Translations under genes and position numbers: made by a program
Notes under the pieces: model-generated
Seen by the model: only the letters and a program-made list of their open reading frames with translations
What the model was told of the DNA's origin: nothing
The model's database searches: none
Shown: in pieces, positions 27,525 to 54,400 of the stretch
How the letters are laid out: each line of letters begins with the position of its first letter
Numbering within the stretch: the first letter of the stretch is position 1
Origin: Siphonodentalium dalli
Taxonomy: Eukaryota > Mollusca > Scaphopoda > Gadilida > Siphonodentaliidae
Assembly (NCBI GenBank): GCA_032622095.1
Contig: CP136069.1
Location: forward strand, 105,988,278-106,052,277
Direction: 5' to 3'
Length of the DNA: 64,000 nucleotides

Positions 27525-27527
27525 TAA

Positions 27528-29259
27528 ATTTCAGATAGTAAATCAAGAAAAGAACAACGATCTGATCCTGATGTTAGGAAAGCTGAGAAAATTTCAGATA
27601 GTAAATCAAGAAAACAAAAACGATCTGATCCAGAGTTTAGGAAATCTGAGCGAATAGCAGATAGTATAGCAAGAACAAAAAAACGATCTGATCCTGAATA
27701 TCGCAAATGTGAAAAAATTTCAGAAGTTTTTTCAAAGAAAAGAGAACGTGCTTCTCTAAAATTTCGGAATGCTGAGCGAAAATCGGAAAGCTTAACAAAA
27801 AAGCGAAAGAGAACAAATACTGAGTTTTCTGAATCGGAGAGAATAATTGGAAGAGAGTCAAAAAAGCAAAAGAGAACAAATACTGAGTTTTCTGAATCCG
27901 AGAGAATGCTTGGAAGAGAGTCAAAAAGGCAAAGGAGAACAAATACTGAGTTTTCTGAATCGGAGAGAATGCTTGGAAGAGAGTCAAAAAAGCAAAAGAG
28001 AACAAATACTGAGTTTTCTGAATCAGAGAGAATGCTTGGAAGAGAGTCAAAAAAGCAAAGGAGAACAGATCCTGAGTACCGCAAAGTTGAGCTCATGATT
28101 GAGTCAGAAGCTAAACAAAAAAAGAGAAATGATCCTGAATATTGCCGCATCGAATCTCATTTCAATGCAGATTATATGAGGAAGAAAAGTTCAAATGTTC
28201 ACTTTAGGGAGATGGAAAGAATTAAGCAAAATGCTAAAAGGCACCAGCTAAATAAAGAGAATATACCTTCTGTTCCAAAACCCAGCACACAGGCACCAAT
28301 CTCAAGATCAGTTGACACCCTTGTTAAACAATTCCACAAGCTTGTATCTCAGGGATGTACATATGTTTGCACTTCATGTGATCAACTTTGGTACAGACAT
28401 AGTGTTGTCAAGGCATCAAATCTCCAGAAAAAGTGTAATGACGCCATCTAGTTGTGTCTAACTGGCTACAAAAGTGAAGATAATGAGGAATGGGTGTGCT
28501 TAACATGTCAGCGTCATCTCCTGAAAAATAGAGTTCCACCTTGTTCAGTAGCTAACAGTATGGTCTTTCCAGAAAAGCCAAAAGAACTTGATCTCAGACC
28601 ACTGGAGTGGAGATTGGTCTCGCCAAGATTGATGTTCCTTAAGTTATATCAGACTCCAAGAGGCAAACAGTTTAAAATAGAGGGGAATGTGGTGAATATA
28701 CCAACTGATGTTGTCACAACAGTAACTCAATTGCCTAGACTAGAGAATAACATGGAGACTATGAAAATCAATTTGAAAAGAAGGCTTTGTTACAAGAATT
28801 CAACAATGTCTCAAAATGTTAGACCTGGAATGGTTCACAAAGCTGCAGAATGGTTGACAGAAAATGGAGCCCTGTATCGTGAGAAAGGTATAACTCACAA
28901 TAGAAACATTGCTTTGTTGTTGAACGATGGGGAACCTCTCCTTCAAGAATGTGACTCCAGTCTAGATAATGTTCCTAGTGAAATTGAAAGTGAAATTTTT
29001 GATTTTGATGGACAAAGTGCTAATGAGTTCTACCTTATCCTTGATAAGGTTTATAAATATCATGCTGCTGATGATCTTGATAACTTTATGGATGGTCAGA
29101 ATCTAAAGAGAAACTGTGTTGTTAAAGAAGGGTTTCTTTGTTTGAAAAATAAAGTATCTCCTCGTACAGTAGTGAACAGTGAATTCTATGAGATGGAAGC
29201 AAGTTCTAGTGATTTACATGAAAAAGCCTTCCTGTGCGTGGTTCCTGGATGTGTGTATT
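27528..29259 (+). pseudogene. Helentron Rep-helicase polyprotein, N-terminal part (repeat region plus DUF6570-like domain)
   Basis: This is the amino-terminal portion of a rolling-circle transposon protein. After the left truncation at the LINE border there are ten 21-residue repeats (27558-28187; example RTNTEFSESERMLGRESKKQ), strongly charged. Next come the paired-cysteine segment CTSCDQLWYRH and, after an in-frame TAG at 28449-28451, CLTGY...EWVCLTCQRHLL, then SPRLMFLKLYQTPRGKQF and GNVVNIPTDVVTTVTQLPR, the block I recognise as the DUF6570-type domain found in front of Helitron/Helentron Rep proteins. It ends in FLCVVPGC, the first half of a zinc finger, at the 9-bp duplication 29251-29259. 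The remainder is at 43050-47579. The start codon is lost and the TAG blocks expression. Confidence 0.85.
29251..29259. repeat. Target-site duplication of the LINE, left copy
   Basis: GTGTGTATT here is repeated at 43050-43058 and brackets the LINE. Joining the two flanks with one copy gives an uninterrupted Helentron frame through CVVPGCVYFDITDHMKTIH, a plausible C2H2 finger. Confidence 0.88.
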
Positions 29260-30127
29260 CATCCTTCAATTATTTTAGTTTAAACAGTATTTATTCCATG
29301 AACAATACAACATAAATTACAACATATCAGAATATAACATCATGGACCGGATTCGACATCAAGCGTGTGTGCTTATGTGAGTCGTTTCCGGGAATCAGTT
29401 TTTGTCCATCCCACCCAGCGAGAGAGCGACTGTCTGATTTATATAATGTTGTGTCGTACGATATACATTCCGTAATTCAGATACTACTGTCGTTCCATGT
29501 AGCCGATTATTACTCTCGCCAGGTGGGGTGGGTGTAGGTACGTCAGGTAATGGCATTATGTAATTGTGTATAGGCATGAATAATAATTAATGTTTTATAG
29601 ATAATGATGGTGTATCTCTTCCCTATGTTTCTGTATAGATTCAGATATGTAGATGTAGAATAAACATCGTGTCGCAAAAGCGTCCAACATATTTCTTTTC
29701 ACTGGCTCTTCTTTCCACTTTTTTCATTAATGTGCAATTATGTATGGTTTATATATTAAATAGATATATAAGTAGATAAAATGTGGTCTTTTGAGTCTAA
29801 TTTTAAAGGATATAACAATAACGTTTCGTGTTCGAAATGCTGCTGGCAATGTTGATGGGAAGAGATAGATCACCAGTAATGGTAATGGTAGAACGGTATA
29901 AGTCTAAGTTAATAATAGGAAAGCAATGAGCTTAGAGTAGTAAATTGGGTTATCTCAGATATGGTTCAGGGGTTTTAGAATGGGTTTTTAGTGTTTTAAA
30001 TGACTCGGTGACCTCGTACCAACGGACTCTATGGCATTGATACTCGCGCGAGTTATTGCTAAGTATACATTCATTCTTTTATGTCTGAGAGTATTAGATC
30101 ATTTAACATGGCGATATACAAACTTAT
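29260..30127 (-). other. 3' untranslated region of the CR1-like LINE
   Basis: It lies between the ORF2 stop and the left duplication on the reverse strand and ends ...AATTGAAGGATG, without a long A tail. It contains no coding. Confidence 0.7.
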
Positions 30128-32617
30128 TTAGTGGGCGAAGCGCTTTGTCCTGGAGATGTATTTTTGTACTTCTCTGAAAATTTTTGCGTTGGTTTTGGGT
30201 GTTAATTCGGGGCATCCATACAGAAGTTTGTGTGTTGTCAGGTTGCATATATCATTTAATGACTGGAGAAGTGAGTTTCTTTCAGCTGTGTATCTATCGC
30301 AATTCATTAGGTAATGGTCGTTGTCCTCTAATTGTCCGCATAAACAATATGGGTGATCGGCGATGAAATTTGTGTACTTGTGATAATTTAGATCGCTGCA
30401 GTTGAGTCTGAGGCGGGTGTGGTTAATTTGTGTTTTTCTGGTAATAGCTTCATAGTAATATCGGGGTACTCCCTCTCTAGTACAGTTTATGGACTTTGTG
30501 AATGATGCAAGGGACTCATAACTTGTTGCGTTCGGGTCGAGTTTATTCCAGAGGTCTGTTGTTGAGGGGATGAAGGATTTTTTGAAGGAAGTGGAATCGA
30601 ACTTTGGGGCTCTCAGGGAATTAGCCTGTCGGGTGTTAACATTTGTTATTTCAACGTTTGTTGGGGGTATTAGATTTCGCAGATAAGGAGGGGCTTGGCC
30701 AGACATCATTTTGTAAAAGAGACGGAGCTTTAAACGTTTCCGCCGTACGGCGAGGAGTTCCCATCCGGTTTCCGTCAGGAGAGATTTGTTACTGGCAGAT
30801 CGGGTTGCACCTGTTGCTATACGAGCTGCTTCATATTGTACTTTTTCTATGTCATCGCTTTCTTCTTTGGTGCAACCATCCCAGACAACACAAGCGTATT
30901 CTAATACAGTGCGTACCAGGGTAAAGTAGCATCTTTCTAATGATGCTCTATTCAACGAGAAACGATGTTTTCTGATAAGGGCTATTCTTTTCCATGCTGA
31001 GCTTAATAAATTATCTATGTGTGGCTTCCATTTTCCGTCGCTACTTAAAACCACCCCAAGATGTGTATGAAGTTTTACTTCCGTGATGGGTTCATTGTTC
31101 ATATAAAGGGTTGGGTGGTGGATTAGATTTCTCTTCCTAGTGCAAGTTAACGCTTCAGTTTTTAAGACATTAAATTCAAGTCGTTTGACATCCTGTTGTA
31201 ATCTTAGTGCGCAAACAGTCGGATCTTCTATTGAAAGAGATATAGATGTATCGTCAGCGAAAAGGCGGATATTACATGATATGTCGTTAACAATGTCGTT
31301 AATAAAAACAAGGAATAGGATAGGGCCTAGTATAGAGCCTTGTGGAACTCCAGCTGTAATGGTTCCCCAGTTTGAGACTTCGGATCCCATAACTACACGT
31401 TGGTGTCTTCCACGGAGGTACGATCCGAACCACTTTAAAAGATTGTCGCGGATACCCACCGCGCTTAGCTTATATAATAAGCCATCGTGCCACACTTTGT
31501 CAAATGCCTTGCTGATGTCGAAGAATAGTAGGCGGGCGTCGCGTTCATCATCTAGTGATTTCGCCAAGTGATGGTATATGTCGCATAACTGATATGATGT
31601 TGAATCTGATGGCACAAACCCCGACTGTCGTTCGGTTATGATATTATTTGACTGGAGATATGACATTAAATGCTTTGCAACACACTTCTCAAAAACCTTT
31701 CCAAAAACTCCTAATAAGGAGATTGGTCGGTAGTTTTCTGGATTACTGCGGTCCCCTTTTTTATGGATTGGGACTACGTTTGCTCGTTTCCATTCAGTTG
31801 GAAAATATGCTTCTTTAAGAAAACGATTGTATATTATAGAAAGGGGGGTGCTGAGACTGAGACAATTCTTCAGAATACGCGGGCTTATTTGGTCGGGTCC
31901 AGAGGCTTTGTCGGCTTTTGTTACTTTCAGGGCATTAAAAACGTCAATTTCACTAATTAGGATATTATTTAGCATGGGGGTGTTTGTCTCGTCGGCAGGC
32001 GGGTCTGGCAGATCGTAGGTCATATTCAATGAGGCAATATTGCAAAAATAATCATTTAGTACAGTTGCTTTCTCGTAATCTGAGGAAGAAACTATTCCAT
32101 TCCTCGAGAGGGGCGGGACCGAATTAACTTTTTTGCGGGACAGTTTGTTGAAAATCTTCCACCATTTTAAGTCGCCAGTTTCTGGATCTTGAAGGATTGA
32201 TTCCATTTTTTGTCTATGAATTTTCTTTGAGTTTCGTACTTCAGTAATTACTTCATTGCGGATTGTCCGATATTTTTGCCATATGGCTGGGGTGTTTCTA
32301 GCTTTTGCAGTTTTGTGTACCATTTTCCGTTGTCTAATGAGATACTTAACTCTCGGTGTCATCCATTCAGGCTCGTTCTGACGGCATTTGACAATTTTGC
32401 TGGGTACATATTTGACGATAAGATTATTCATATATGATGTGAATGTTGAGCAGATTTCATCAGTTCCCAGGTTGTCAATTATTCGGTTCCAGTCACATGA
32501 ACGAATTTCATTGTTTAAGGAAATAAAATTAGCCTCATCATACATGTAAATAAGACGATTAAAAGATTTGCTTCCTTTCTGTTTGTCTTCGACTTCTATC
32601 GTGGCATATACCGGCAC
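30128..32617 (-). pseudogene. CR1-like LINE ORF2: reverse transcriptase and C-terminal domain
   Basis: An 829-codon frame that reverse-transcribes the element's own RNA at the target site. Polymerase motifs are visible: WKRANVVPIHKKGDR and ENYRPISLLG near residues 275-300, motif A FFDISKAFDKVW near 362-375 with its catalytic Asp, motif B GVPQGSILGP near 423, and motif C RLFADDTS near 450-457 with the DD pair. After DVKRLE the text jumps to FNVLKTEALT; related proteins have about a dozen more residues here, so I infer a small in-frame deletion. The C-terminus has a Cys/His cluster (CLCGQLEDNDHYLMNC). The reading frame joins the endonuclease part upstream through a one-base shift in the A6 run at 32638-32643. 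Confidence 0.9.
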
Positions 32618-32938
32618 ATGATAGCGGACTAGATCGGAAAAAAGGGATCCAGGGTACCAGATCCTTTCAGTTCACATAGATCATTTATGAATATTAGATC
32701 TATTATGGTTTCAGAGTATTCTGTGAAGTTTGTGGAGTCGTGAATAACTTGTTTCAGATTACATTCTGCGACTATGGTTTGTACTTTCTTGTTTACAGGG
32801 TTGTATTGATTTTCATTAAAGTCTCCAGAGACAATTAGTTTGTGTGTGGGATACGAATTTATGGTGTCACCGATGTTTTCTAATATGTTGTGCCAGCAAT
32901 TCACATTTGGGGGGCGGTAAAAAAAACCAATCAACACT
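32618..32938 (-). pseudogene. LINE ORF2 endonuclease domain, C-terminal half
   Basis: It encodes VLIGFFYRPPN, then KLIVSGDFNENQYNP and IIDLIFINDL, the conserved mid and late blocks of APE-type endonucleases, where the GDFN Asp/Asn pair is catalytic. The frame breaks at LDPFFPI*, where a homopolymer (A6 on the plus strand, 32638-32643) is off by one; the other frame continues as DLVRYHVPVYATIE. On its 5' side it is cut by the DNA transposon at 32940/32941, and the preceding codons are at 40682 and upward. Confidence 0.88.
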
Positions 32939-32954
32939 CTCCCAGATAGCACAC

Positions 32955-33370
32955 GTACGTTGGGCCAACGTTGGAATAATTACGTTGGCCCAACGTCGGC
33001 TTTTGTGGTTGGTACGACGATGGCCCGACGTCGACTTGCGTTGGAATAATTACGTTGGCGCAACGTCGGATTTTGTGGTTGGTACGACGATGGCCCAACG
33101 TCGACTTGTTGGAATAATTACGTTGGCGCAACGTCGGATTTTGTGGTTGGTACAACGATGGCGCAACGTCGACATGCGTCAGATTTTGCACGTTTCAAAC
33201 ATGGCTACGTTGGCCCGACGTTGGACAACCAACGTTGGGCCAACGTTGGTTTTACCGCTGGTTTAACGTTGGCCCGACGTTGAAAACATAACGCACTAGG
33301 CGATATGTGAGGTTAGTAGGTGCGTTAGATGTCGACGTTGGACCAACGATGGCCCAACGTTGGTCATAGT
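32955..33370. repeat. Left subterminal repeats of the 7.7 kb transposon
   Basis: A unit of 68-70 bp starting GTTGGAATAATTACGTTGGC and containing TTTTGTGGTTGGTACGACGA occurs three times (from about 32970, 33040 and 33108). Looser copies of GTTGGCCCGACGTTGG follow to about 33365. Most cores are palindromic (CCAACGTTGG), so they are potential symmetrical binding sites. Confidence 0.9.
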
Positions 33371-33504
33371 GTGGAGAAATCGGTCGATTACGCCGTAGCG
33401 TCATTTTAACGTCATTCTTAACTGGTCGCGTGTTTCTTTTTCAAATAACGCTTTGGTTTATTGACTGAACTTGCATTTGTGTTCTGAGTGAGCTTCTCGG
33501 TTTA

Positions 33505-33572
33505 ATGGATTATTATTTGGATAATGCACCACGGAACACCATCACCAGCTATAGGGACCCGAAGAAGTACCG
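33505..33572 (+). CDS. Possible first coding exon carried by the transposon
   Basis: ATG at 33505 opens a frame that starts MDYYLDNAPRN and continues to DPKKYR. It is followed directly by GTAAGT at 33573, a perfect match to the metazoan splice-donor consensus. It lies about 560 bp inside the left end, just beyond the subterminal repeats, which is where a transposon gene would start. I do not recognise the peptide, I have not found matching downstream exons, and a chance ATG plus donor is quite possible. Confidence 0.25.
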
Positions 33573-33819
33573 GTAAGTACTTTAGTTGAGAATATCATGC
33601 CGAATAACTTGGAATTTCAACGATAAGCGTGCGTCGTCGGATTCATTTCCTCCACAACCAACTTAAAGTTTGAATTTGAAGTTTAACCCTTCAATTGTCA
33701 GAAACGAAAACAAATAAATTTATGTCAGTTTCGTGTGATGGCATCCGACTGTATGAGGAAGAAAATGTCATTCTAATTACTATCTAAATTTCACGATCCA
33801 TGTGTGATAATGCATGGAT

Positions 33820-34400
33820 TTAGGGACATGGCGGCAGGGGTGTTGCACGTGTGTCTCGCACCCCCCACCCCACCACAACTTTGGTCAAAATTGTCAACAG
33901 TTGGATATTTCATACATGACACAACATTAATTGGAACTTTCGCACGGTCACACCAACAATATTATAGGTTGAGATTGTTCTCGTAGTTTGATTTTCCAAC
34001 AATTATTACTTGTTTATGGAACATCATTTGCACATTGTCCTACTTTTGGTATAAAAAATTGACTGAAATGGCATCAGTTGGAATTTTTTACGACCTTAGG
34101 GTGGGGGGGGGGGGGGTCTCAGGTTGGAAATTTCCAACAATTGGAATTCTTGAGGCCAGTCTAGATGGTAGGAGTTTGCTATTTTCAGAGGTTCTGATCT
34201 CAAAATGTTCTCAGTGTATTCCGTTCCTCTTCTGGTTGTGGCAACAATACTACTGATCCATTTAGAATAATGCTAACATCCAGGCTGTGAGGGGCCAGTA
34301 ACTTTTGGGGAAATCAAACCCCAAAGGGGTGGGGTGCAGTTGAAAATTTCAAGGTGGATGTACCCCTCCCCAACGCTGAAACCCATCTAGCCACGTCCCT
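33820..34400. repeat. Copy of the dispersed 'TTGGAAATTTCC' repeat, inside the 7.7 kb transposon
   Basis: In order: GACATGGCGGCAGGGGTGTT, CACCCCCCACCCC, TTGTCAACAGTTGG, GAAATGGCATCAGTTGGAA, a G run, CTCAGGTTGGAAATTTCCAA, CTTGAGGCCAGTCTAGATGG and, at the end, CCCATCTAGCCACGTCCCTG. The block order matches 17130-18012. Confidence 0.7.
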
Positions 34401-34816
34401 GTCATGGATTTCCATGGATAATTAAGTTCAGCCTACGACAGTGGATACCGTTCCACTTTCAGTTGTATACCCTATAATAGGCTATTATGCTTATAGCTGT
34501 TGGGGGGGGGGGGGTGTACTACCAGAATAGGAATTTACGATTGCACCACCCCCTTTCGTTGTATAAAATGCTCGAGCTGCAAACCAGAGTTCAGTCCCCT
34601 CGCTACGGTGTCTGACGCCCTGTTATATAGGAGATTGATTTATGCATGGAGTTCGAACAACCTCCCCTTAATTCGGTATTTTCCAACCGGTACCTTAAAT
34701 CCACTTGTCGGTTTGCGCTCCAAAATACACCTAATAAAAGGTCAGCAGACCACAGTGTCCCCCGACAACATGGCAAGTCGATGCCGCTTTGTTAAAGAAA
34801 TTAAAAAAAAATGTTG
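34401..34816. other. No gene recognised
   Basis: A G run at about 34501-34512 and otherwise unremarkable sequence. The frame at 34500-34817 begins in the G run and has no recognised domain. Confidence 0.35.
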
Positions 34817-35245
34817 AAATTTCTAAGTCGAAAAGGGTTAATAACTCCATAAACAAAATATTAGCTATATAGATGTTGCAAATCACCAACATGTTAGGAA
34901 CAATATCCCAGAGTTTCAAATCTCTACATTTAAAACTGTAGGAGGAGTTGATTACACCATGAAGGTACCCAATCTCATCCAAAAGGCAAAAATGTTCCAA
35001 ATTTTCTAAGTCGAAATCCCCCCAAAAATATGGAAAAAATTATATTTTTGATTAGCTATATAGATGTTGCAAATCACCAACATGTTAGGAACAATATCCC
35101 AGAGTTTCAAATCTCTACGTTTAAAACTGTAGGAGGAGTTGATTACACCATGAAGGTACCCAATCTCGGACGCACGGACGCACGGACGGACGGACGCACG
35201 GACGGACGGACGAGGGTCATTTCTATAGTCCTCCGACGGAAACGT
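34817..35245. repeat. About 190-bp tandem duplication ending in (GGAC)n
   Basis: AAATTTCTAAGTCGAAA, then GCTATATAGATGTTGCAAAT, CACCAACATGTTAGGAACAA and GTAGGAGGAGTTGATTACAC occur twice (from 34817 and from about 35005) with almost no change. The second copy continues into GGACGCACGGACGGACGGAC and CCGACGGAAACGTCGG, a small hairpin. It is a recent duplication of an interspersed repeat whose relatives lie at 22538 and 12 kb. Confidence 0.8.
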
Positions 35246-36539
35246 CGGGGGACAATAATATTCTCTTGTGAATTGTTTCCCGTGTCGAAATAGGTCGATA
35301 AATACATGTCACAATAAGATGCATTGAAGTCATAACAAATACAAGTTTGAACACGATGTTTGGGTCCCAACCAAAAAACAGCTATTTACACGGAGCGTTC
35401 CGTGTTAGTCTATATATTCCTGATATATGTTATAAATAAAGAGCGTTCGTTTCACTTCTCTGCGAAAAATTTAAAACAGCTGGAAAATGACAACGGAAAG
35501 TACTTACCAGAGCATATGGCGCCAACGTATCAATATTCTGTCAACCAGGCCATTCTTGTGTGATTACCATGCAGTACATACTTAATCGGAGGGGGGCTTA
35601 TATTGACGTGTGAAAGGGTCTATCTGCTCTTTCGAGTATGCATGATTCCCGGGGAAGTTTTTAGTTTCTGAAATATGTACATGTACCTATTTATGGTCTC
35701 CGAATCAGTGACGTGGCTACATGGTCTTTGTTATGGTGTGTCAACGTTGAATTTCCTCTTGAACCAGACACCAAACTCCTTCGCGAGTTTCAATTTGCAC
35801 CCCCCCCCCCCCCGCTTTGCATTGAAACTTTCCAACCGGCACCCAGGCTTTTCAACTGTTGGCAATTTCCAAACTGAATAAGACTGGAACATTTCCAAAA
35901 TGGTGTTCATGTCAGACAACAATTTTTACTAAAGTCTAAAAGTTTTAAAAATATGATACCGGAGGTGTAAACAAAAATATTCCTACTGATTGTTGGAAAA
36001 TCAGGCAATGAAAACACGTACTTAAAGTTACCATGTAGTGATGTGTCAGACATGAAATTTTCAACTTTTTTCTACAATGACTCACGTCACAGGGGTTTGA
36101 AACGCGATCCGCTGTCCAGCAATTGGCATACACCCATAGTTGCAAAAAAATAATTTCATTTTACAAACTTTACATTACGTGCGTATCATTTTACATTGTT
36201 TACGTCAAAGAATCACGTCATATTGATACGTTGTGTCAATGTTCACATGACTGGAGCTGTTGGAAGGAAGTTATTACGTTGTCACACTGTGTCACAATAA
36301 TTATTTCAGCTGTATTGTGGGCCTATAGTCGTAACGTTGAGTAATATTAGGATTTATGTATTTGGTTGGGGTCAATTTGTGTATTGGTGCATCCCCCACA
36401 AACGACCAATGACTACATAATGGACGTTGTCACTGTATTAAATGCCGCGTGTCCCTAAAACATAAATTTGAACCCCCCCCCAATAATAGACATGATTAGA
36501 TATTATTGTGCGGGTAATTTAACTTTTTGGGGATATGTG
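35246..36539. other. No gene recognised
   Basis: Contains AATAAAGAGCGTTC at 35435-35448 and a C run near 35801-35813. No frame with recognised features. Confidence 0.35.
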
Positions 36540-37215
36540 GGACGTGACGGCATGCAGGGGGTGGCGACATGCACAACTTTTGGAAATTTTTAATAATTTT
36601 GGCGATACATATGGGGCATTTTTTACCAATAAACAAATATTACCCATCCCATATTTTGTCTGAGGTATTCATATCAATTAATTACTTGGCTTGGGGCTCA
36701 CCAAGCTACCAACTGAAATAGTTTGTTGTTCTAACCAGTAGGCCTACATTTAGAGCAGTTTGGCAGAAAGGCGGTCTGCTATCAACATGCTGTTGTCAAG
36801 CCCCCACCCCCGTTGTCCTCACGCCCCTGACAGTAAGAATTTAATATCTGTGACAATGTGGGTTGGAATAAATATGGTAATGTGTGCAAAAATGGATGTG
36901 GCGACAGGGGTTTGAACATTGAGGTGTTACCACCCCTCCCCAATTTTTGTCAAACTTTTCAACATTTTGGAATTTTCAATAACTTAAATTAATGTCGTGT
37001 CAGTCATGAAATGACTAACTGTTGAACATTTTGGTCAAAGTTAATGGGGCGGGACAACCTTACCCATATTGTCACTGACCTGACAGTAAGATTGCCCACT
37101 CTAGGAGGTTGTGGGTTAGAACAAATAATTAGGGTGATCGCAACATGGATGTGGCGATAGAGGTCGAGGTATTACCCCCCCCCCCCCCCCCCCCCCCAGA
37201 TAATTTCAACATTTT
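36540..37215. repeat. Degenerate relatives of the dispersed repeat, about 250-bp spacing
   Basis: ATGGATGTGGCGACAGGGGT near 36893 recurs as ATGGATGTGGCGATAGAGGT near 37144. Each is followed by GAGGT[GA]TTACC, a C-rich run and TTTCAACATTTT...AATTTTCAATAACTT. A less similar copy starts near 36540. The C run at 37177-37198 is unusually long. Confidence 0.55.
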
Positions 37216-39945
37216 AAATTTTCAATAACTTTATAAGTTGAACATCTTAGGCAAAATTTGTTTGAGATCATTTCGATAGTTTACATTTCCAAATTTCTAA
37301 TGAGTATCGTTTTGGTCATTATTATGCGGTGAGCTAATTTCAAGATTTGGAATTTTCAATATCATAAGTTGAATTTCAGGCAAAATCTTTCTGAGATCGT
37401 CTGGATAGTTTCGGTTCCCAACAGATATGTAATATTTAGAGTACATTATATTATTTTCTACAAAGACTATATTATAGCTATTAAATGGTAGTGTGTTGGA
37501 TTTCAAACTCAGCATCGAATGGGAGACCAGATGAAACTTGGTCAAGTTGGGAAAACAGATTGGAGGAAGGCTTCTGTCAAAGTCCCTGACATATTACCCC
37601 CCACCCCGTTCTCAAACCCCGTTCTTCATATCCATTCCGATTTGTCACCAAATGCTGAGATTTTTTATAAAGCAAGTTTTCAAACCGCTGTTTAATATTC
37701 ATCGTACTAGTAAATGGGCATTGAAACACAAACACTCTTTATCGTTGATGATACGGCTGACAACAATTCAAAACATGCTAAAATAATTACTCGATATCTC
37801 ACTGGATATCTTGCGAATTTACTAATATGTTCGGTCTCATATTTGCTGGGGAAAATTTCCAATGAGCAGAAACTTACCATGCGCTGGCTCTTGTGGGATC
37901 TATGCAATGTTATTAATGAACTGATTGACAGTTTTGCTAGAAATTGACACCGACGAGAGTGAGCAGTACGTAGGCTTAGCGAGTTTTGATAATCCGTGAC
38001 CAATTGGTTGATTGAGACGATCCTGGGTATTGGGTATATAAGATAATTACCTGCTGTTCTCAGAGATATTCATGAGTTGAGAAAAACTTCGCGCGCGCAT
38101 AGCACCTCCGCCTACCGGCGTCGGTGTCATCAGCACGTGCTCAAGTCCTTCCAACTCACGAATTCCTCGAGACCAGTATATGTAACGATTACGTACCACG
38201 TGCAAAGGTATGGTACCTATATATACTATCGGGAACCGTTCGATTAATTAAAGTACCATATGCATACATATTTTATATATATTATTGGCAACCGGTCAAA
38301 TAATTAAAGTACTCTCGTGCATGCAAATGCATGTAGGAATTTCCCGGATTGGTCTTGTTCTTATATATCAAGATGTGTACAGTGTGTGACAATGTCAAGC
38401 TGCACACAGAAAATGCATTGGGCTAACGGTATTCTCTGTTTCTTTCAGGACTTATTTACTTGCTATCCTGTTTCTGGATATGGATATTTTGTGTATACAT
38501 ACGCCACGGTACTATACAAGCGGATTCGATCAAAGTTTACTCGTCTGTCGAAACCATCAACGGCTTGGGGATATGAACTTACATGTACCAGTATTCCAGC
38601 ATCATGGCAGTATGGTCTATATCGTGTTGCACATCGTTATATTGTGAATATTATTGCACGACTGACACCAGCGCGACCGACATAACACCATGTACGACAT
38701 GAATTCGTCAGTTTATGGTTATTCACTTGGATGGAAATTCTTACTTGTCCTGTGTTGTGTATTCAATCAGATGCAAAAAAAAAACTCGGCATTCATCGGT
38801 GTATCGATAATCGGCACTGAAAGGATGATGTTGTGGCAGTTATACATCTGATACATCAGTTATTAATAACGTAATGATAACCTATGAAAATGGTAAATTC
38901 CAGATATTCAAGGAGGTGAATATAAAATGGTTTCTCTCGATTTCTTCAGAAGAAATGTCAATCAATGTCCTACAAAACAGTTGCTTCATACAAGCCAAGT
39001 TCCTGCATACATATATGCATGAGCCATGAGTACACTGAATCCAGTTCATGACAGATCATGGAATGATGAAAATATTATATTTCATATAATATGTTGGGTT
39101 TTGTATACATAAATTAATCTTTATGGATCCATGGGTTTAATTTCTCCCAGATAAATCATTCCAACATATGCAACAAGTGGCATACATATGTGCATAGATA
39201 CAAATAAGCTTAGTAATTGCTCATTTCATAATATGTCAACAGATAAAATTAATTGCTGTACATGCATGTATTGAATTTATATAATCAGAATCTACAGTAT
39301 CATGGACTAATTAGAAAACGGATTGCAAAAGCGCGATATTCTTTCTTATGTGACATTGTATATCACCATGCACAGAGTTCCCTCCATATAATAGCACTGG
39401 TACGTAAATGAGCAATTACTAGGTTTAATTTAATCATATGTACTTTGAGCCGTTTCAAATTTTGCACATCTACATCAGATCACCCTCCAGAATAATGATG
39501 TTCGAAGAAGATGTAACCTGACCAAAGTTTAAAGCCACATAATGTTTGAATATTTTGTTCCCAACATTATCGAGAGCACAAAATCGCAAATTAAGCTGAA
39601 ATAAAGACATTTCTTTTGTATGGTAAAGGGATATATAATCTAACAAAAATATGTAGCATTTTCGATAACTTTATTCAGGAGACCAATAAAAAATATTTTT
39701 CTTTAGAGTGAGTAGATGGTCAAGATTCTTAAAATCAACAACTAATGACATGTCATTTTGTCTTTATTTAAATCGGCATACACTTTTTTTTCTATATGTT
39801 TCATTTTATTCTGGTTTCATATTTGTGAAATTGAATGTTGTTTCCAATTATAATACTTTGAAGTTGCAAACATTATGTCGGACTTTAAATTTATTGTTAT
39901 GTTGTATCTCATCGGATGTTAATTTTATAAGGACGCCCTAATGTG
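37216..39945. other. Interior of the 7.7 kb transposon, no recognised gene
   Basis: Frames of 60-122 codons occur, the longest being 38317-38685 on the plus strand, but none shows a DDE-type motif, zinc knuckle or other domain I recognise. A 58-bp imperfect duplication is visible at 38218-38312 (GGGAACCGTTCGATTAATTAAAGTAC and a diverged copy). Confidence 0.35.
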
Positions 39946-40004
39946 AGGGGAATCGACCCTACGAATGGAGCCTCGATCCGTCCCTGTCAATGCCCAAACA
40001 CAAC

Positions 40005-40667
40005 GTTGGCCCAACGTTGCCCCAACGTCGTATTCTTAGTGGAATTCACCGTTGATTCGACGTCGTTTCAACGTCGGGTGCCCGACGGCGCACCAACGTC
40101 GGCTCGACGTCGAACCACCATCGAGTCGACGACGGGATCCGACGTCAAGCCGACGCCGAGCCAGCGACAACAGCCATAGTTGGCCCAACGTTGGATTCCA
40201 ACGTTGATAGAAATGACGTTGGCCCAACGTTGGCCCAACGTCGTATTATTAGTGGAATTCACCGTTGGTTCGACGTCGTTTCAATGTCGGGGTGCCCGAC
40301 GGCGCACCACCATCGGATCGACGTCGAACCACCGTCGAGTCGACGACGGGATCCGACGCCGAGCCAGCGGCAACAGCCATAGTTGGCCCAACGTTGGATT
40401 CCAACGTTGATAGAAATGACGTTGGCCCAACGTTGGCCCAATGTCGTATTATTAGTGGAATTCACCGTTGGTTCGACGTCGTTTCAACGTCGGGTGCCCG
40501 ACGGCGCACCAACGTCGGGTCGACGTCGAACCACCGTCGAGTCGACGACGGGATCCGACGTCGAGCCGACGCCGAGCCAGCGGCAACAGCCATAGTTGGG
40601 CCAACGTTGGATTCCAACGTTGGCCCAACGATAGAAATGACGTTGGCCCAACGTTGGCCCAACGTGG
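40005..40667. repeat. Right subterminal repeats: three copies of a 202-214-bp unit
   Basis: GTGGAATTCACCGTTG starts at 40039, 40253 and 40455. Each unit continues with CGACGTCGTTTCAA, GTGCCCGACGGCGCACCA, GAGTCGACGACGGGATCCGA and AGCGACAACAGCCATAGTTG (or a close variant), then GTTGGCCCAACGTTGG. The arrangement differs from the left end, so the two ends have expanded independently. Confidence 0.92.
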
Positions 40668-40681
40668 GTGTGCTATCTGGG

Positions 40682-41334
40682 CTTTCTCTCGGTAATATAA
40701 CTTCAAGCCAAATGCTTTCTAAACCAGGTTTCTCGATATCTTTTCTGCGTGTATAGGCTAAATCGTTTTTGATATAAGCGATCACGCCCCCACCTACACT
40801 GTCCGTTCCTACTCTGTCGGCTCGCTCGGGTTCGTGAAATCCGTGTATTAGTAAATCATGCTGGTCCGTTTTATCGCTCAACCAAGATTCCGTAAAGCCG
40901 CATATATCGTAATTTTGTATTTCGGTGGCAAGTATGTCGATTTTAGGGAGGAAACTTTGTACGTTCAAATGGAATAGTGACAGTTGACCATTATTGGTGG
41001 GACCAGGATTTGGTTTAACATCACCAGAAGTGATGAGAAGATGCCTGAACCAGAAGGGAATTCCAATTTGGGTATTGACCAAAAGATTGTGTCGGACGTT
41101 TTTTCGCGTGTGCATAGATGTAGTTGAGATTTCAATTTTGTCGTTGTATCTCACCATAAACAGCATGAGTAAGGCCAGTAGTATTTCATTTTTACCAGCG
41201 CCCTTTAGTTGTAATCCAATGTAAAAGATGAGTAATTCCGATATCAATGGGTCGCATCTATGTTTTCGCTTAGCATAACGCGCGCGAGTATAGAACATGC
41301 CTACTCGTGAACGGTGCGCGTCAGCCAGGATCAT
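40682..41334 (-). pseudogene. LINE ORF2 N-terminus: leader, 2A-like motif, endonuclease domain (first half)
   Basis: A reverse-strand frame from ATG at 41334. Residues 1-102 form a leader with a hydrophobic stretch (about 31-62, including EILLALLMLFM). GDVKPNPGP follows at residues 104-112. The APE-type endonuclease then begins: LSLFHLNVQSFLPKID, then DICGFTESWLS (catalytic Glu) and GVIAYIKND, up to LEVILPRES, where the DNA transposon interrupts it. The domain resumes at 32938. The enzyme nicks target DNA to prime reverse transcription. The small upstream ORF at 41321-41524 overlaps this start by 14 bases. Confidence 0.85.
40999..41028 (-). other. 2A-like peptide motif in LINE ORF2
   Basis: SGDVKPNPGP matches the 2A ribosome-skipping consensus D-(V/I)-E-x-N-P-G-P except for Lys in place of Glu. 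It lies just before the endonuclease domain, the position reported for 2A-like sequences in APE-type LINEs of marine invertebrates. If active, it would release the leader from the enzyme during translation. Activity with Lys at that position is uncertain. Confidence 0.7.
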
Positions 41335-41524
41335 CGGTGTATATCTTAGTATATTTTAAGCGGGTAGGCAGTTCATTCCTGTCATCGGTTCGTCGGTTTG
41401 AGGCCTGAGTCAATAGCCGGGGATTGTATGAGTAATCATAAAGATGTAAGGATAGAGAGGGTGTGGCGATGGATGTAAGAATAAAGGTAATAATGATAAG
41501 CATGGTATAGAGATATACACACAT
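41321..41524 (-). CDS. Short hydrophobic ORF overlapping the ORF2 start
   Basis: 67 codons beginning MCVYLYTMLIIITFILTS, a signal-peptide-like hydrophobic N-terminus, followed by a polar tail ending TDDPG. Its stop lies 14 bases inside ORF2. It resembles no ORF1 protein I know and has no CCHC or RRM-like motif. It could be a leader ORF controlling ORF2 translation, or chance; I lean to chance. Confidence 0.2.
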   Translation of the reverse strand: MCVYLYTMLIIITFILTSIATPSLSLHLYDYSYNPRLLTQASNRRTDDRNELPTRLKYTKIYTDDPG

Positions 41525-43049
41525 GAAAGTAGAAAATCATAAACAGTTCTGAAAAAAAGATTATATACACTGCAATACTTATGTGTTTGTTTGTAAGTTC
41601 AATATATAAAACGGTGACCTAAGATACCAATATTGTCGTGTGAATTAATTCTACCAATATTAGTACAGATTGTGTGAGCGTTTATGGATGAGAATGATCA
41701 GATGTGAGCTTACAATGTGTAGTAAATGACGGACATCCGTGTGTAAATATATTATGTAAATATATTATGTAACTAAATTACGGATGTATTGTGATCAAAT
41801 TGGAAGTCCACTGGTTATGTAACCAGTTGACTTCCATTTTGATCACAACACAACCGTAATGTACGTAGACATACAGTCCCAGACTTATCACCAATCGGTT
41901 ACAATAATAATAGTATTCGTGTTTGGCGTGCATATCCAGGTGAAAGATCGGTCACTCTACGTGAGTACGAAGAACGATAACACAACATGGGCTTACGGTC
42001 GAAAGGGAGATAATTCTACGGTCGCCAGCCAGTTGAGAAAATTATTTCATAAGGAGAGTGATCTGAATGGACGCCGCGAATAACTGCATCGGTGGAGTAA
42101 GTTAGGAGTTTCCAGGCCATCCGGCATTTCAGTGGGAAGAGCTTTCATGAGAACACTAATATCAGGTGACAGTGAAGTCGATAACGCTTGCATTTCGCGC
42201 ATTCGAGAGTAAAATAAATTTTGCTATAAACTGTCGTTGCCAAGGTGTAGTAGATCGATACATTGTATGATTTGAGGTGTGGTTGACAGCAAGTCGCGTG
42301 TCGTGCGTAAACGAACACGTTGATGCGCATGTGTGTTTATATGTGTTGTATATATAGATATACACCAAGTCAAGTAATCGTCAGTCACTTTAAACGATGT
42401 GTGTTTTGTTGGCCAGTCAGTATGTCTATAAATGTAACTAGAGCTAGGGATGTAACTTTTTGGATAGAGTTACCTCCATTGGCATGTCTGATGCCGTCGG
42501 ATTCTTTCGTTAATCAAAATGTGTTTAGTGGACAGGTCGGTCACATGAGTTATATATACTACAGGAATAGTATTAAGCTTGTGTATAAAGTAGCATACAT
42601 TTCTTAAAGATGCAATCACGGTTCCAGGTCCCAGTAACAACATCTGCTGTTGAAGACAATATGTAGAATTGATTATAGCGAGGACATTGTGATCATGCAT
42701 AATCACCGACACAAAGAAGAGTAACTCTATCGGTGTCGGTGCACCTCGATATAATGCGGATAGATCCTAAGATGGCCGATAAAATAGAGCTGGAATGTAT
42801 AGTATACCGTAAGTGAGCGTTTGATTGATTTGGCGGAGTAATATCGCATGTCGATTTTTATTAGCAAGGACATAGATGGCTAGTTTGATGCCCTATTGCA
42901 TCGAATTATAATATATAATGATATGGTGTTTATGCATGGTATTATTTAATTCCTCGTCCCTATAATTATGCCAGCTAATGGAACTTGTTTCAAGTGCTTA
43001 TTTATCGAATACGGCTTACTGTGCGTATTCGATTAATTTGGTGGTTGTA
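41335..43049 (-). other. 5' region of the CR1-like LINE
   Basis: About 1.7 kb between ORF2 and the right target-site duplication. No ORF1-like protein is found. It contains an 82-nt palindrome (41778-41859). As the 5' end of a LINE it would normally hold an internal promoter; I see no element I can name. Confidence 0.6.
41778..41859. repeat. 82-nt near-perfect palindrome in the LINE 5' region
   Basis: The left half has TTACGGATGTATTGTGATCA, AATTGGAAGTC and CACTGGTTATG; the right half reads as its complement: AACCAGTTGACTTCC, TTTTGATCACAACACAACCG, TAA. Only about four positions fail to pair. It could be a small MITE inserted in the LINE or a structural part of the leader RNA. Confidence 0.8.
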
Positions 43050-43058
43050 GTGTGTATT
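43050..43058. repeat. Target-site duplication of the LINE, right copy
   Basis: GTGTGTATT, identical to 29251-29259. The Helentron frame resumes here with codons for VYFDITDHMKTIH. Confidence 0.88.
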
Positions 43059-46000
43059 TTGATATCACTGATCATATGAAAACAATTCATAAAGAAAGTA
43101 AACACCAGGAAATGACACAATCACAAGATAGCTCTATTCCCACTTGTTACCTCTGCTTTGTTTGTTTCCATGAAACATTTTCTGATACAGAAATAGGTGA
43201 CCACATGCGAATTGTACATGATCTCCCAACATTATCTGATGTCGAAATTCATACCAAACAACTGAAACAGGACACAACAATTAATGTGCACACTGTGCTT
43301 CTCCCTGAGAGGGTGGTTCTATTTGATGTAGAGAAATTCAACTCAAATTTGGATGTAACCTGCAGATACTCAATTACTACTCCATCTCAACTGTTTCTGA
43401 AGAAGCAAACAAGTATTGAGAACATTGATAAGACTTCAACATAAGATGAATGTTCTGATGTGAATAATGTGTTGATTACTGAAGAAGCTTGTGATAGCGA
43501 CAATGAAGAACCAAAATCTGGTGTACTTGACACTCTGTTGACAGGCCCGGACTTCTTAGATGATGATGAGCGTAACAAAGCAACATCATTTGCACCTGGT
43601 GAAGGGAGTAAACCAATCAGTGTCTTCAAAGATGAACATTGTGAAGAATTAGCATTTCCAGAAATATTCTTTGGTTCATCAAGAGAGAAAAACAAAAACA
43701 GACATGTACCTGTTCATTATAGTGAAACTTGCAAATCTGAATTGAGACGACGAGACAGAAGAGCAGCCAGGTGTATAGATAATATCTTTTTCAAAGCAAA
43801 GAAATTACAAATGAAAGCTGTAATTAGCAAAACAATGTTAGCAGTAAGGAAGCATAAGACCCGGGGTAAAAAGTTGACAGCAGGATACTTAAAGAAACCT
43901 GATGCCATTAAAAAGCTACTACATCTCGATGAAGGATATGCCTTCCTGAGAAGTTTGAGAGGATCTCCACCATACTTTGAGAAAGCAAAGAAAGATCTGT
44001 TTGCTATGCTGAGACAATTGGGGCCCGCCACTCTATTTTGTAGTTTTTCCTCAGCTGAAACAAAATGGTTACATTTACTAAGGATACTCGGGAAATTAGT
44101 TGATAATAAAGAATATACGGACCAGGAGTTAGAGGATATGTCTTGGGATGAAAAATGTCGACTAATCTCCAGCGATCCTGTTACATGTGCTCGACATTTT
44201 GACTACCATGTACAGTGCTTGATAAACAAATTTATCCTGACACCACTCAACCCAGTTGGTGAGATATCAGACTGGTTTTATCGAGTTGAGTTCCAGGCTA
44301 GAGGAAGCCCACACATACACATGATGCTCTGGGTGAAAGATGCACCAGTATATGGTGAAAACACTGAAAGAGAAATAATTGAATTTGTTGACAGATATAT
44401 TTCATGTGAGAAACCTCAAGACATTGAATTGGCTAACCTTGTTTCACGACAAGTTCACCGACATTCAAGAACATGTCATAAAAAGAAAACTGGAAAATGT
44501 CGCTTCAATTTTCCTCAGCCACCTTTGAGGAAGACAGTTATTTTAAAGCCACTGAATTCAGATGATGAGTCAAAGAAACACATTGCAGAATGGACACGCA
44601 TTAGGAATATCCTGAACAACATGAAGCTAGGAGAAGATATTTCTCATGAGGAATTTCTAGAGAAAATAGGAACCACTGATGAACTATATACTATGGCTAT
44701 AAGATCATCTATCACCTCAAGTACTTTATTTCTAAAACGGACGCCCCTTGAGATTCGTATAAACAACTACAACAAATTGTGCTTGTCTGCTTTTAGAGCT
44801 AATATGGATTGTCAATTCATCTTAGATATGTATTCATGTGCCACATATGTTGTGTCTTATATATCTAAAGGAGAGCGAGGTATCAGTGACCTGTTATACA
44901 AGGCATGCAAAGAAGTCCGAGAAGGGAATTATACTATCCGAGAACAAGTCAGGAAAATAGGGAATAAATTCTTGAACAATGTTGAGATATCAGCACAAGA
45001 AGCAGTTTATATTGTACTTGGATTACCAATGAGAAAAGCTTCCAGAGAGGTTATATTCATTAACACTGCTCCTCCCGATGAGAGAACTAAGTTACTGAAA
45101 CCACTGAAAGAGATAAATGAGATGAGTGATGATTCAGAAGAGGTGGAGTCAAATAACATGTTAACAAGATATGCAAAAAGACCCAAAAAGTTGGAAAAAG
45201 TCACGTTAGCTGATTGGGTGGCCATCTATGATAAAAGAAATTTCTGGAAGAAGAGAAATACAGCAGAAACTGATACTGATGGTTTTCCTGTTGATGATGA
45301 CCCTGAAGAAAACTCGGATGATGAAATGCCTCAAAATGAAAAACCAACTGATTCTGTGCACAGAAAAGTCATACGAAGTGTCTGGTTCAATAAAGACATG
45401 TATCCTGAGAAGCACTACAGAGAATTACTCATGCTGTTCACCAACTGGAGATGTGAAGATACTGATCTATTACATCGATGTAATACATATGAAGACAGAT
45501 ATTTGCAACTTAAAGGGGCTATAGATGAACAAATGAAACTCTATGCACCTTGTCAAGATGCCCTCGATGATGCTATGGTTGACTTACAAAACAGAGAGAA
45601 CATGAATGACATCATTGTTGCTCCTACCGCTCAACATCAAGATGACATAAATGAAGATGAAGGAATGATAGCTGTGACAGAAGACCCAAAAATCACATAC
45701 GATTTAGCAGAAGATCTGGGTGTCGGAATTAAAGTGCAAGTTGAAGATGATGACATTGAGTCAGTGTTGACTGAAACTGAATTTAGAAGTCTCATGAGAA
45801 AGATGAACAAGGAACAACTTTCATTCTTCTACCATGTCCTTTATACAGTCAAAACATATGATGAGCCACTCTATTATTTCCTAAGTGGTGGAGCCGGTGT
45901 CGGAAAAAGTTTTGTTGTGACACTGCTATGTCATGCCATCAGAAACTACATGACCAGTGAAGAAGGTGGTGATTTCAATCTGAAAAAAGTTCTGCTTGTG

Positions 46001-46903
46001 GCTCCAACTGGCAAGGCTGCTCACAATATAAATGGTCGAACACTTCACAGTACTTTCGCTATACCTGTCAGTCAGTCGCTCAAATATAAACCCTTGGATA
46101 GTGATCGGTTGAATACACTCCGCAGTAAGTATGGATCTATCAAATTAATATTTTCTGATGAAATATCTATGGTCGGAAATAGGATGTTAAACTTCATCAA
46201 CATGAGGTTGAGAGAAATAAAAGGAAATAGCAAAGACTTTGGAGGAGTCAGTATTATAGCAGTCGGTGACATGTTCCAACTGAAACCTGTATTTGATCAA
46301 TGGGTTTTCCGGCCACTTGATTTGGACTACGGACCCCTTGCTACCAATCTTTGGTTTGAACATTTTAGTCTGTTCGAACTTACAGAAATCATGCGCCAAA
46401 GAGAGAATAAAACATTTGCAGAATTGCTTAATAGATTGAGAGAAGGGAATCAGACTCACGAAGACATACATGCTCTCGAACGAAGGACCATAGATTATAA
46501 ACATCCAGATTATCCACATGATGCTGTCCATCTATTCACAACCAACAAGAATGTAAATGCATTCAATGAAGAAAAATATCGGTTAAGCAAGGAGATCAAG
46601 TATGAAGTCCAGGCTGTTGATTCGGTTGTAGGTGTCACTGGGACCAACCTTGAGAAGAATATTATCGATAAAATATCAGATGATCCAAGGAAAACAATGC
46701 AACTCAGCAAAGTTCTGAAACTCGCTATTGATGCAAGAGCAGAGATTTGTATTAACACTGATGTGGAAGATGGGTTGTCAAATGGATCCTCAGGGATTGT
46801 TAAACATGTGCAGCTAACTGACAAGAAAGGAATTGTTTGGATCGCATTTGACAGTAAAGATATAGGTAAAAAAAACAAGAAAAAAATACCAACATCTATA
46901 TGA
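43050..46903 (+). pseudogene. Helentron polyprotein, central part: zinc fingers, Rep (HUH) nuclease and PIF1-like helicase
   Basis: The rolling-circle transposase. From the left: the second half of the split finger (DHMKTIH), another finger-like C-x2-C...H-x4-H (CYLCFVCF...DHMRIVH), and an in-frame TAA at 43442-43444 followed by an open frame of 1147 codons. Counting from 43460, the Rep HUH motif GSPHIHMMLW has its His pair at residues 285 and 287. The tyrosine motif CATYVVSYISKG has Tyr at 463 and 467. The helicase Walker A GGAGVGKS is at 810-817 and the Walker B-like IFSDEISM has Asp-Glu at 900-901; GDMFQLKPV follows. The frame ends at TSI* because of a shift in the A-rich stretch 46866-46887; the next frame continues the helicase. 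The HUH residues and both ATPase motifs are intact. Confidence 0.9.
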
Positions 46904-47579
46904 TAACACCGTGGAGTCAACCTGGACACCTATCTTTCCAGATTCTAGACAGTTTAGAGTTGGGCGCAGTGCACAACACCAAGTCATTCGTAAGCAGTTT
47001 CCACTTAGATTAGCTGCATCTAAAACTGTACATAGATCTCAAGGAGACACTGTGAATAGTATTGTTGTCGATCTGAGTGGACGTAAAAGGGAGCATATTC
47101 ATTATGTGGCTCTCAGTAGGGTAACATCTTTGCAAGGACTCCATATTCTAAATCTGAATCACAGAAAGATAGCAGTTTCAGATGAAGTCAAGATAGAAAT
47201 GGAACGACTGCGAACTACAAAGAACATTTCAATAAGCAGAGTGGTACAAACTCAAAATTCTTGCAGGATAGTCTATCTGAATGCCAGGTCATTGCACAAG
47301 TACCTGGAAGATGTAAAGGCTGATCCAAGATTTACATCAGCTGATATCTGTGTTTTCTCAGAAACAAGATTTGAGAAGAATGATCCTGAACTTGCTGTCA
47401 ATATACCGCCATATTCTCTGCATCGCATGGACAGCAAAATGAAAAGAAATCATGGATCTGCAATTTATTCGAGATTAGCATATGAAGATGGTTATCCCAG
47501 GAATGTGCTGCACTCTGATATCGCAGAGGTGTTGGGAATTAAAATAAAAAAACTGAAAAACACTATAATTTTATATTCG
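46904..47579 (+). pseudogene. Helentron polyprotein, C-terminal part: helicase end and endonuclease domain
   Basis: It continues the PIF1-like helicase in another frame: WTPIFPDSRQFRV, FPLRLAASKTVHRSQGDTVN and IHYVALSRVTSLQGLHIL are late helicase motifs (V and VI). After a linker it encodes RIVYLNARSLHKYLEDVKAD, then ADICVFSETRFEKND and GSAIYSR, the start of an APE-type endonuclease. A C-terminal endonuclease of this kind distinguishes Helentrons from canonical Helitrons. The domain stops near IILYSK (47580), where a LINE 3' fragment follows, so its second half and the transposon's 3' terminus are missing. Confidence 0.87.
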
Positions 47580-48234
47580 AAAATTGTGCTTTGTCGGGCA
47601 ACTCATTCGCCTGCCAGAGTCACATCAGTTACCGCTCCGGATCTTTGTAACGAATTGTCACATATATAGACTGTTCAATCGCCAAGCTACTGGCTCTGTT
47701 TCAGATATATTCGCCATTATGGACAAATATAAATTGCGTCACTATTTGGATGATTATTTGGATGAAGGGACATTTCCTGCGAAATCCGTGTGGAAAAACA
47801 TTGTCAAGACTGCTGTTCAAAACACATATGTGTCTTCTTGGCAGTCATCTGTCGCTAGTGATCCTGCTCTAGTTGTTCTCTGGAAAACACATCATTATCC
47901 TTTGACATGTTGGTCTTTTTGGAAACGACTGCATGGTAATGATCATCACAGTACAGCGATACAAAATCTTGCGTTCCTACTGCACAGAACCACATACCCG
48001 AACAACCTTCAGTGCCGTCTTTGCCAATCAAGATATAACAATGAAATTCAGAACATATTATTCACTTGCCAGTCATTACCTCTGCTTTATCTTCGGAACC
48101 AATTCTGGGACGGAATACTGACACGCTATGGCGTGGTCACTTCGATGGAACTGCTTGCTCTTGTAGACCGGCCCCCAGATGAGGGTAGTGTCACACGAAA
48201 GGGTAGAAATGATGCTATCTCCAATTATCCTTGA
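47580..48234 (+). pseudogene. LINE 3' fragment (relative of the LINE at 60788)
   Basis: It encodes CFVGQLIRLPESHQLPLRIF, a block aligning with the C-terminal region of the LINE at 60788-63973, then KYKLRHYLDDYLDEGTFPAK and VWKNIVKTAV, which align with HRLMHYLTKYVSKCAFPERS and SWKQIVRNAI there. A Cys/His knuckle follows (CRLCQSRYNNEIQNILFTC). Everything upstream, including reverse transcriptase, is missing, which is typical of 5'-truncated insertion. The left border falls inside the Helentron endonuclease domain. The 3' end is uncertain; coding similarity fades near 48180. Confidence 0.8.
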
Positions 48235-53074: not shown

Positions 53075-53689
53075 TTACACTATTATTTTTAAGGCATTTC
53101 GAAGTGTCAGCCATTGGTTATCGAATTCATAGTTCATGTTACATTTTGCGTTGTATCTCTCGCATTCATACCTAAATTGAAGATCACAAAGGAACGGTCG
53201 AAGTGATAGTTGTGTGGGCGTGAATTTTGTTCTATATATATATTTTTTCAGCACTAGTAGGAACAGATTACTTTTTGAATTTTTGTATTCATGATCTATG
53301 CCAATAATTATATTCTTTTTTGTTAGATCAATGGGAAATTGGTTGTTTCTTGCCCATGTTTCAATTTCTATCATAAAGGTTTTGACGTGGGGACAGTCCC
53401 AGAAAATGTGAGAAATGGTTTCCTGTACGCTATGACAACGATTGCAAAAATCGTCGACTCGAAGGTTAGCCACCTTCAGAAATTTATTGGTACTAATAAT
53501 TCGTGTGTTTATTCTGAATTGGAGCCACTGTAATTTCGTATCCGTTGTCGTTTTAAAGGGCATGCTCAAATATTCTTCCCAATTTTCTATTTTCTCGCCA
53601 AATTTGGATTCCCATTTTTGACATGCATTCGGCATGGTTTTCTCAGGGTGTGGGGGTGTCTCACCCCCAACTTTGGTCCAAATTTTCAA
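53075..53689 (-). pseudogene. LINE 3' fragment, L1/Tx1-like
   Basis: Reverse-strand frame of 204 codons. LQWLQFRINTRIISTNKFLK, then FCNRCHSVQETISHIFWDCP and VKTFMIEIETWARN, are the C-terminal blocks of Tx1/L1-clade LINE proteins, in which a C-x2-C...H-x4-C knuckle precedes a tryptophan-rich tail. The last part (KKYIYRTKF...LCDLQFRYECER) also fits. The polymerase is absent. The 5' border at about 53640-53689 meets the dispersed repeat that follows; the first residues (MKIWTKVGGETPPH) belong to that repeat, not to the LINE. Confidence 0.8.
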
Positions 53690-54400
53690 CAGTTGGAAAT
53701 TTCATTTCACACCAACAATGGGTTTGAAAATGTTCTTGTCGTTTGATTTTCAAACAATTTATTGAGGGAAATTAATTGTTTTTGGACCAATATTTGCATA
53801 TGTTCCTATTTTTTGTCAAAATTTTGGACTGAAATGGTCATCAGTTGGAAATTTTCCAACCTTAGGGGGGGGGGTGATAGGTTGGAAATTTCCAACACTT
53901 GGAAAGCTTGTGTCCTGGTCCTCCCCCGTGGCTAGTCAAAACTGCTACTAAATTTAAGAAAACAATATTGTCATACATTTGGTCAACATTGTCATTAGAA
54001 TTGTCATCAACCTGTCATCAACCTGAAATTTCCAACTCTAAGAAGACTTGATGCTAGTCTAGATGCTAGGATTTTGCGATTTATCTTGTTCATATTTCAA
54101 AATTTTCGAACACCAGGCCGAACCATGGTCGGCCCGGTGTGTCACTGACCAATACAAAACTGCTAATTAGTTTAACAAACAATAGTTTAGTACATTCGGT
54201 CAAACGTGTGGGCTGAAATGGTCATCAGTTGGAGAATTTTCCAGAGAGTATGAGGTTTGAAATTTCCAACACTAGGGAAGCTTCAGCTGAGGCCAGTCTA
54301 GATGCTAGGATTTGCGATTTTCTTGTATAGTTTTCCAAATTTTCTCACACCGGGCTGAACAAACATGGACGGACACAATGTCCTGGTGTCTTACTCGTAG
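53640..54400. repeat. Tandem copies of the dispersed 'TTGGAAATTTCC' repeat
   Basis: TCAACAGTTGGAAATTTCA, GAAATGGTCATCAGTTGGAA, a G run, ATAGGTTGGAAATTTCCAAC, CTAGATGCTAGGATTTTGCG and ACCAGGCCGAACCATGG appear once, then many recur at about 54215-54370 (GGTCATCAGTTGGAGAATTT, CAGTCTAGATGCTAGGATTT). Related to 17130 and 33820. Confidence 0.65.

Follow-up and report, generated by a model that had tools for sequence, protein, structure and literature searches.

Elements at the locus

The window (the whole 64,000-nucleotide stretch of DNA analyzed here) contains a Helentron on the plus strand, a LINE on the minus strand that separates the Helentron into two parts, and an element with terminal inverted repeats (TIRs) that in turn separates the LINE into two portions. 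The features delimiting these elements are given below; position 27528 is the start of a listed open reading frame (ORF) only and not the start of the Helentron, the 3' end of the LINE lies at 29277 (or at 29275 if the TT is counted) and its 5' truncation point at 43054 (or at 43056 if the shared TA is counted).

27528–29276, plus strand: upstream Rep/Hel part of the Helentron, with 21-aa tandem repeats, DUF6570 and the Cys pair of the first C2H2-like finger
29251–29259, plus strand: left copy of the 9-mer GTGTGTATT, plain Helentron sequence, with 11 nt between the 9-mer and the duplicated site
29271–29276, plus strand: left target-site duplication TATTTT, from the overlap of flank matches in 8/8 copies; its last two T may be those of the LINE
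29277–32940, minus strand: 3' portion of the LINE, with the remaining endonuclease region, the reverse transcriptase (RT; RVT_1, E 2.1e-29), the C-terminal part and the 3' UTR
32941–40681, no strand assigned: TIR element of 7,741 bp in the LINE endonuclease region, with 14-bp perfect terminal inverted repeats and a 2-bp duplication
40682–43054, minus strand: 5' portion of the LINE, with the N-terminal part of the endonuclease frame and sequence upstream of the frame
43050–43058, plus strand: right copy of GTGTGTATT, with GTGTG from the LINE, TA common to LINE and target, and TT from the target
43055–43060, plus strand: right target-site duplication TATTTT, from the overlap of flank matches in 8/8 copies; its first TA may be that of the LINE
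43061–47666, plus strand: downstream part of the Helentron, with the His pair of the first finger, a second C2H2-like finger, Rep (Helitron_like_N), a PIF1 helicase and the start of an endonuclease-like stretch

Comparison of the outermost element with Pfam families revealed DUF6570 in the upstream ORF (E 4.6e-16) and, in the window ORF at 43445–46903, both a Helitron_like_N Rep domain (E 7.1e-25) and a PIF1-type helicase (E 7.6e-28), as in Helentrons (Helitron2-like rolling-circle transposons). A C-terminal endonuclease is given as a defining Helentron feature in passages of two publications (PMC4067079; PMC5148889). Such a domain is present in L036, which belongs to the eight uninterrupted copies described below and has an open frame spanning DUF6570, the fingers, Rep, the helicase and a C-terminal Exo_endo_phos (E 1.5e-7), whereas in the window only the start of the corresponding stretch remains, and Pfam gives no match there. 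The window copy is also damaged apart from the insertion, with in-frame stops at 28449–28451 and 43442–43444 and a frame break in the ORF overlap at 46866–46903; a frame break is also present in L002, the copy closest to it at the junction. The 21-aa units are encoded by 63-nt tandem repeats at 27527–28110, close to where the Helentron frame begins.

The two LINE portions together comprise 6,037 bp (3,664 + 2,373). This family is similar to other non-LTR retrotransposons in having endonuclease and RT in one frame, an upstream ORF (in copy L007), 5' truncation and target duplications of variable length, and unlike them in that no poly(A) tail was seen at the 3' ends of the seven aligned copies (window included). 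On the LINE strand, six of these seven copies have the same 3' end, ...GTTTAAACTAA, or differ from it in one letter; at the 3' junction, TTAG and the bases following it are shared with the window by five of six other LINE copies, the C6 copy being different. Target duplications elsewhere in the genome reach up to 14 bp (copy C5) and up to 11 bp (C4:211.5 Mb), with letters other than TATTTT; for the LINE copy on C1, a 13-nt duplication probe was not found at the 5' side. ORF2 forms a single 1,169-aa frame in copy L011 (RVT_1, E 1.8e-33; Exo_endo_phos, E 6.4e-6). On the minus strand of the window, ORF2 is fragmented, being interrupted at 40682/32940 by the nested element, with a frame shift near 32640 relative to L011 (common to L010) and with an RT that is without nine residues present in both L010 and L011; its Exo_endo_phos match (E 6.5e-5, 23.2 bits) is under the family cut-off of 24.5. 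The ORF upstream of ORF2 in L007 is 306 aa long and gave no Pfam match. In L010 (L010:4884–5564), the 3' end of the same LINE runs into what is, as judged by eye, a likely integrase frame of an LTR element.

The TIR element starts with CCCAGATAGCACAC and ends with its exact complement (hence the perfect 14-bp TIRs), is flanked by the target duplication CT (AG on the LINE strand) and carries tandem ACGTTGGGCCAACGT-type arrays near its ends. Both limits recur in other copies. For the left end, among the best 40 of 418 candidates, which were scored, 34 of the 39 other long matches start at query base 59 to 62 (base 62 being 32941), i.e., no more than 3 nt off, and the remaining five start at query base 90. 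For the right end (best 40 of 412 candidates scored), stops at query base 112 to 116 (112 being 40681, thus at most 4 nt off) were recorded for 37 of the 39 best other matches (exactly at base 112 in 29 cases), and the two others run to 125 and 132. Six further pairs of ends were fetched from copies visible in both end lists, the ends being paired by position only; together with the window, the 2-bp duplication is found in six of seven copies (CT, CA, AG, TT, AC, CT) and is missing from one (AT vs. AC).

In its perfect 14-bp TIRs, its 2-bp duplication in 6/7 copies and its many genomic copies, this element is comparable to TIR DNA transposons with 2-bp target duplications, and superfamilies with such short duplications exist. 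It differs from an autonomous transposon of this kind in that no transposase was matched at E up to 1 in the ORFs scanned (10 of the 21 ORFs of at least 80 aa over 32900–40700). The element is apparently non-autonomous; a spliced or decayed transposase gene may be present within it. We consider it improbable that it represents an undescribed TIR group, characterized by 2-bp duplications and by large near-palindromic ACGTTGGGCCAACGT-type arrays near the ends, which would seed satellite-like arrays genome-wide; still, the 7.7 kb middle element is the least familiar part of the nest. Two repeat features were recorded inside it: a 117-nt repeat spaced 191 nt, with a CGGA microsatellite, at 34860–35212, and an array with a unit of roughly 203 nt at 40003–40665, at one end of the element, which has similar counterparts in other copies with varying match numbers.

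Paralogous empty sites at the Helentron–LINE junction

The position of the LINE within the Helentron was derived from paralogous empty sites, which have been employed for Helentron-like elements according to a passage in one publication (PMC4067079). The searched genome comprises 2.23 Gb in nine contigs, and both queries were left uncut through the respective junction. The left-flank search (window 29150–29350; 40 of 571 first-look candidates scored, so that the copy count is a lower bound) yielded at least nine rows on the Helentron side, i.e., the window itself and eight other copies, all eight of which match as far as query base 127, corresponding to window position 29276 and not to 29259. 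The right-flank search (window 42850–43110; 18 of 18 candidates scored) yielded 18 matches, including the window, eight LINE-side rows and nine Helentron-side rows; all of the latter start at query base 206 (window 43055), and eight of the nine adjoin the eight copies of the left-flank search. In every one of these eight close Helentron copies, the two flank matches have precisely 6 bp in common, TATTTT. A ninth, more distant Helentron copy (L030, C6:9795328, 88%) is likewise uninterrupted. Since uninterrupted paralogues exist (eight close and one distant), the Helentron is older than the LINE, which bears out the order proposed in the preliminary description of this locus, Helentron first and LINE second.

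All eight uninterrupted copies were aligned, and three of them were also read directly. They carry either GTGTGTATT (4/8: L002, L027, L028 and L029) or GTGTATATT (4/8: L003, L004, L025 and L026), then 11 bases, then an unbroken TATTTTGATATCACTG. The run of six TATTTT columns across the ten rows of this alignment is there by construction, the window pieces having been cut beforehand at 29276 and 43055, and adds no evidence to the flank searches. A longer pattern spanning the true junction was found at eight places in the genome (six exact and two with two mismatches) vs. none for its reversed control. The TA of TATTTT at the 5' junction and its TT at the 3' junction occur also in other LINE copies; because two nucleotides at each end of TATTTT may thus be LINE-derived, the strict duplication amounts to 2 to 6 bp. 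Judging from the paralogues, the Helentron junction prior to the insertion would have been CATCCTTCAATTATTTTGATATC, and an empty allele is expected to read GTGTGTATTCATCCTTCAATTATTTTGATATCACTG.

The LINE side of the right junction is documented by the remaining rows of the same search, where query base 207 (window 43056) is the last matched base in seven of the eight other LINE-side rows and base 122 in the remaining one. All six LINE copies that were fetched beyond this point have GTGTGTA and then CTAGTGCGCGTCGG; because they continue 5' past it, the window LINE is 5'-truncated at 43054 to 43056. With a length of ~7.6 kb for copy C5 (by coordinates), the window LINE is ~1.5 kb shorter at its 5' end, which is where the upstream ORF sits in L007.

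A different junction was put forward in the preliminary description, with a breakpoint at 29259 and with GTGTGTATT as a 9-bp target duplication. This 9-mer is indeed found at both 29251–29259 and 43050–43058, but its interpretation as a target duplication was rejected, with the paralogues being uninterrupted, their flanks overlapping in TATTTT and the right-hand copy being largely LINE. On its own the 9-mer is weak evidence of an insertion, with four copies in the window (both strands) vs. 0.93 expected by shuffling, and with four copies reached in 4 of 100 shuffles. On the left, Helentron homology extends 17 nt beyond the supposed breakpoint, continuing to 29276, in 8/8 copies. On the right, the LINE 5' sequence contributes 5 to 7 nt to the 9-mer, the rest being target, and the 9-mer is mostly LINE sequence because GTGTGTA is present up to 43056 in all six fetched LINE copies. 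The repetition of GTGTGTATT at both flanks is therefore a coincidence. Intact Helentron paralogues with a different sequence at this point would, on the preliminary description's own terms, refute it, and they differ from its exact junction in all eight cases: before GATATCACTG they have, after the 9-mer, either CATCCTTCAATTATTTT (5/8) or variants of it with 1 to 4 differences (3/8). The junction predicted by the 9-mer join, GGATGTGTGTATTTTGATATC, is absent from the genome at 0 or 1 mismatch; at 2 mismatches it has three matches, none of them at the Helentron copies found, vs. five for the reversed control.

Reading frame and finger spacing

Joining the Helentron flanks as in the uninterrupted copies gives the pre-insertion peptide CVVPGCVYSSFNYFDITDHMKTIH. 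The alternative join, with one copy of the 9-mer, loses five codons (15 nt) relative to the true one, and it keeps the frame because 15 is divisible by 3. Thus the earlier observation that a one-copy join gives an open frame through PGCVYFDITDHMKTIH holds, but PGCVYFDITDHMKTIH is not the true peptide, the correct join being open as well. Both joins are in frame, over 1,206 nt (true) and 1,191 nt (alternative), and the frame cannot separate them because they differ by 15 nt. For this reason the open frame was rejected as an independent proof of the breakpoint. The independent agreement between duplication and frame that had been claimed is likewise lost, with the duplication being a coincidence and the frame being blind to the 15-nt difference.

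The flanks of the paralogues also bear out that, in a C2H2-like finger of the Helentron, the LINE separates the Cys pair from the His pair. Within the window itself, the match in finger spacing is a better argument for the true join than either the frame or a regular expression: in the true first finger, 12 residues separate the two pairs (vs. 7 in the alternative join), the same number that lies between the second Cys of the second finger, CFVCFHETFSDTEIGDHMRIVH, and the His of its DHM. A C2H2 regular expression with 12 residues between the pairs accepts both joins, the alternative one by means of a later His pair (HKESKH). The term "C2H2-like" refers here to spacing only, because this expression accepts both joins and no zinc finger was detected by Pfam at E up to 1 in L002, a copy without the insertion.

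Order of insertions and alternative explanations

The insert of 13.8 kb had been described as a LINE in its entirety. This reading was rejected, since the LINE copies L010 and L011, both without the 7.7 kb element, are continuous across its site, with GAGAAAGAGTG in L010 and GCGAAAGAGTG in L011; the LINE measures ~6.04 kb and is split by the separate 7,741-bp element at 32941–40681. Comparison with paralogous empty sites confines the Helentron breakpoint to a few shared letters and exposes a third nested element.

Overall, three nested elements, i.e., a Helentron, a LINE inserted into it at TATTTT and a 7,741-bp TIR transposon inserted into the LINE, provide in our assessment by far the best explanation of the locus (probability of roughly 0.97). 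The sequence of events began with a rolling-circle Helentron equipped with Rep, a PIF1 helicase and, in an uninterrupted relative, a C-terminal endonuclease. A LINE of ~6.04 kb then inserted on the opposite strand in a 5'-truncated form, presumably by target-primed reverse transcription; its target, TATTTT, lies where the Cys pair of the C2H2-like finger is followed by the His pair. Later, the TIR transposon entered the endonuclease region of the LINE, probably by a cut-and-paste mechanism, leaving a 2-bp duplication.

A misassembly or chimeric join that brought LINE and TIR-element sequence into the Helentron appears highly improbable. Repeats are prone to assembly errors, the three elements are all of this kind, and the junctions are known from the assembly alone; against this, a short target duplication is present at each level of nesting, as insertion predicts, the ends of the TIR element are clean, and the LINE has the same orientation on either side of it. 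A misjoin is not expected to yield matching duplications at two levels, and we infer that the pieces were correctly joined. Less probable still, and in effect dismissed, is a single 13.8 kb LINE with GTGTGTATT as a 9-bp duplication and PGCVYFDITDHMKTIH as the pre-insertion peptide, which accommodates the 9-mer at both coordinates, the in-frame join and the loose C2H2 expression satisfied through a later His pair, but is contradicted by a junction seen in 0/8 paralogues, by a predicted empty site without genome matches at 0 or 1 mismatch, by Helentron homology past the supposed breakpoint, by the chiefly LINE-derived right 9-mer and by the second element within the insert.

The three nested elements amount to an ordinary case of transposon nesting, which is a common phenomenon. 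The locus provides a clear illustration of ordered stacking among three types of element and leaves the knowledge of those elements unchanged; its value is mainly cautionary, as a short repeat and an open frame resembled two independent proofs of a breakpoint, of which the repeat proved coincidental and the frame undecisive. Two additional retroelement-like features are located elsewhere in the window. On the minus strand, an ORF at 53075–53701 with a zf-RVT match (E 1.6e-6) is possibly the end of another retroelement. On the plus strand, a second LINE-like frame at 60752–63973 carries endonuclease and RT in two neighboring ORFs with one stop between them.
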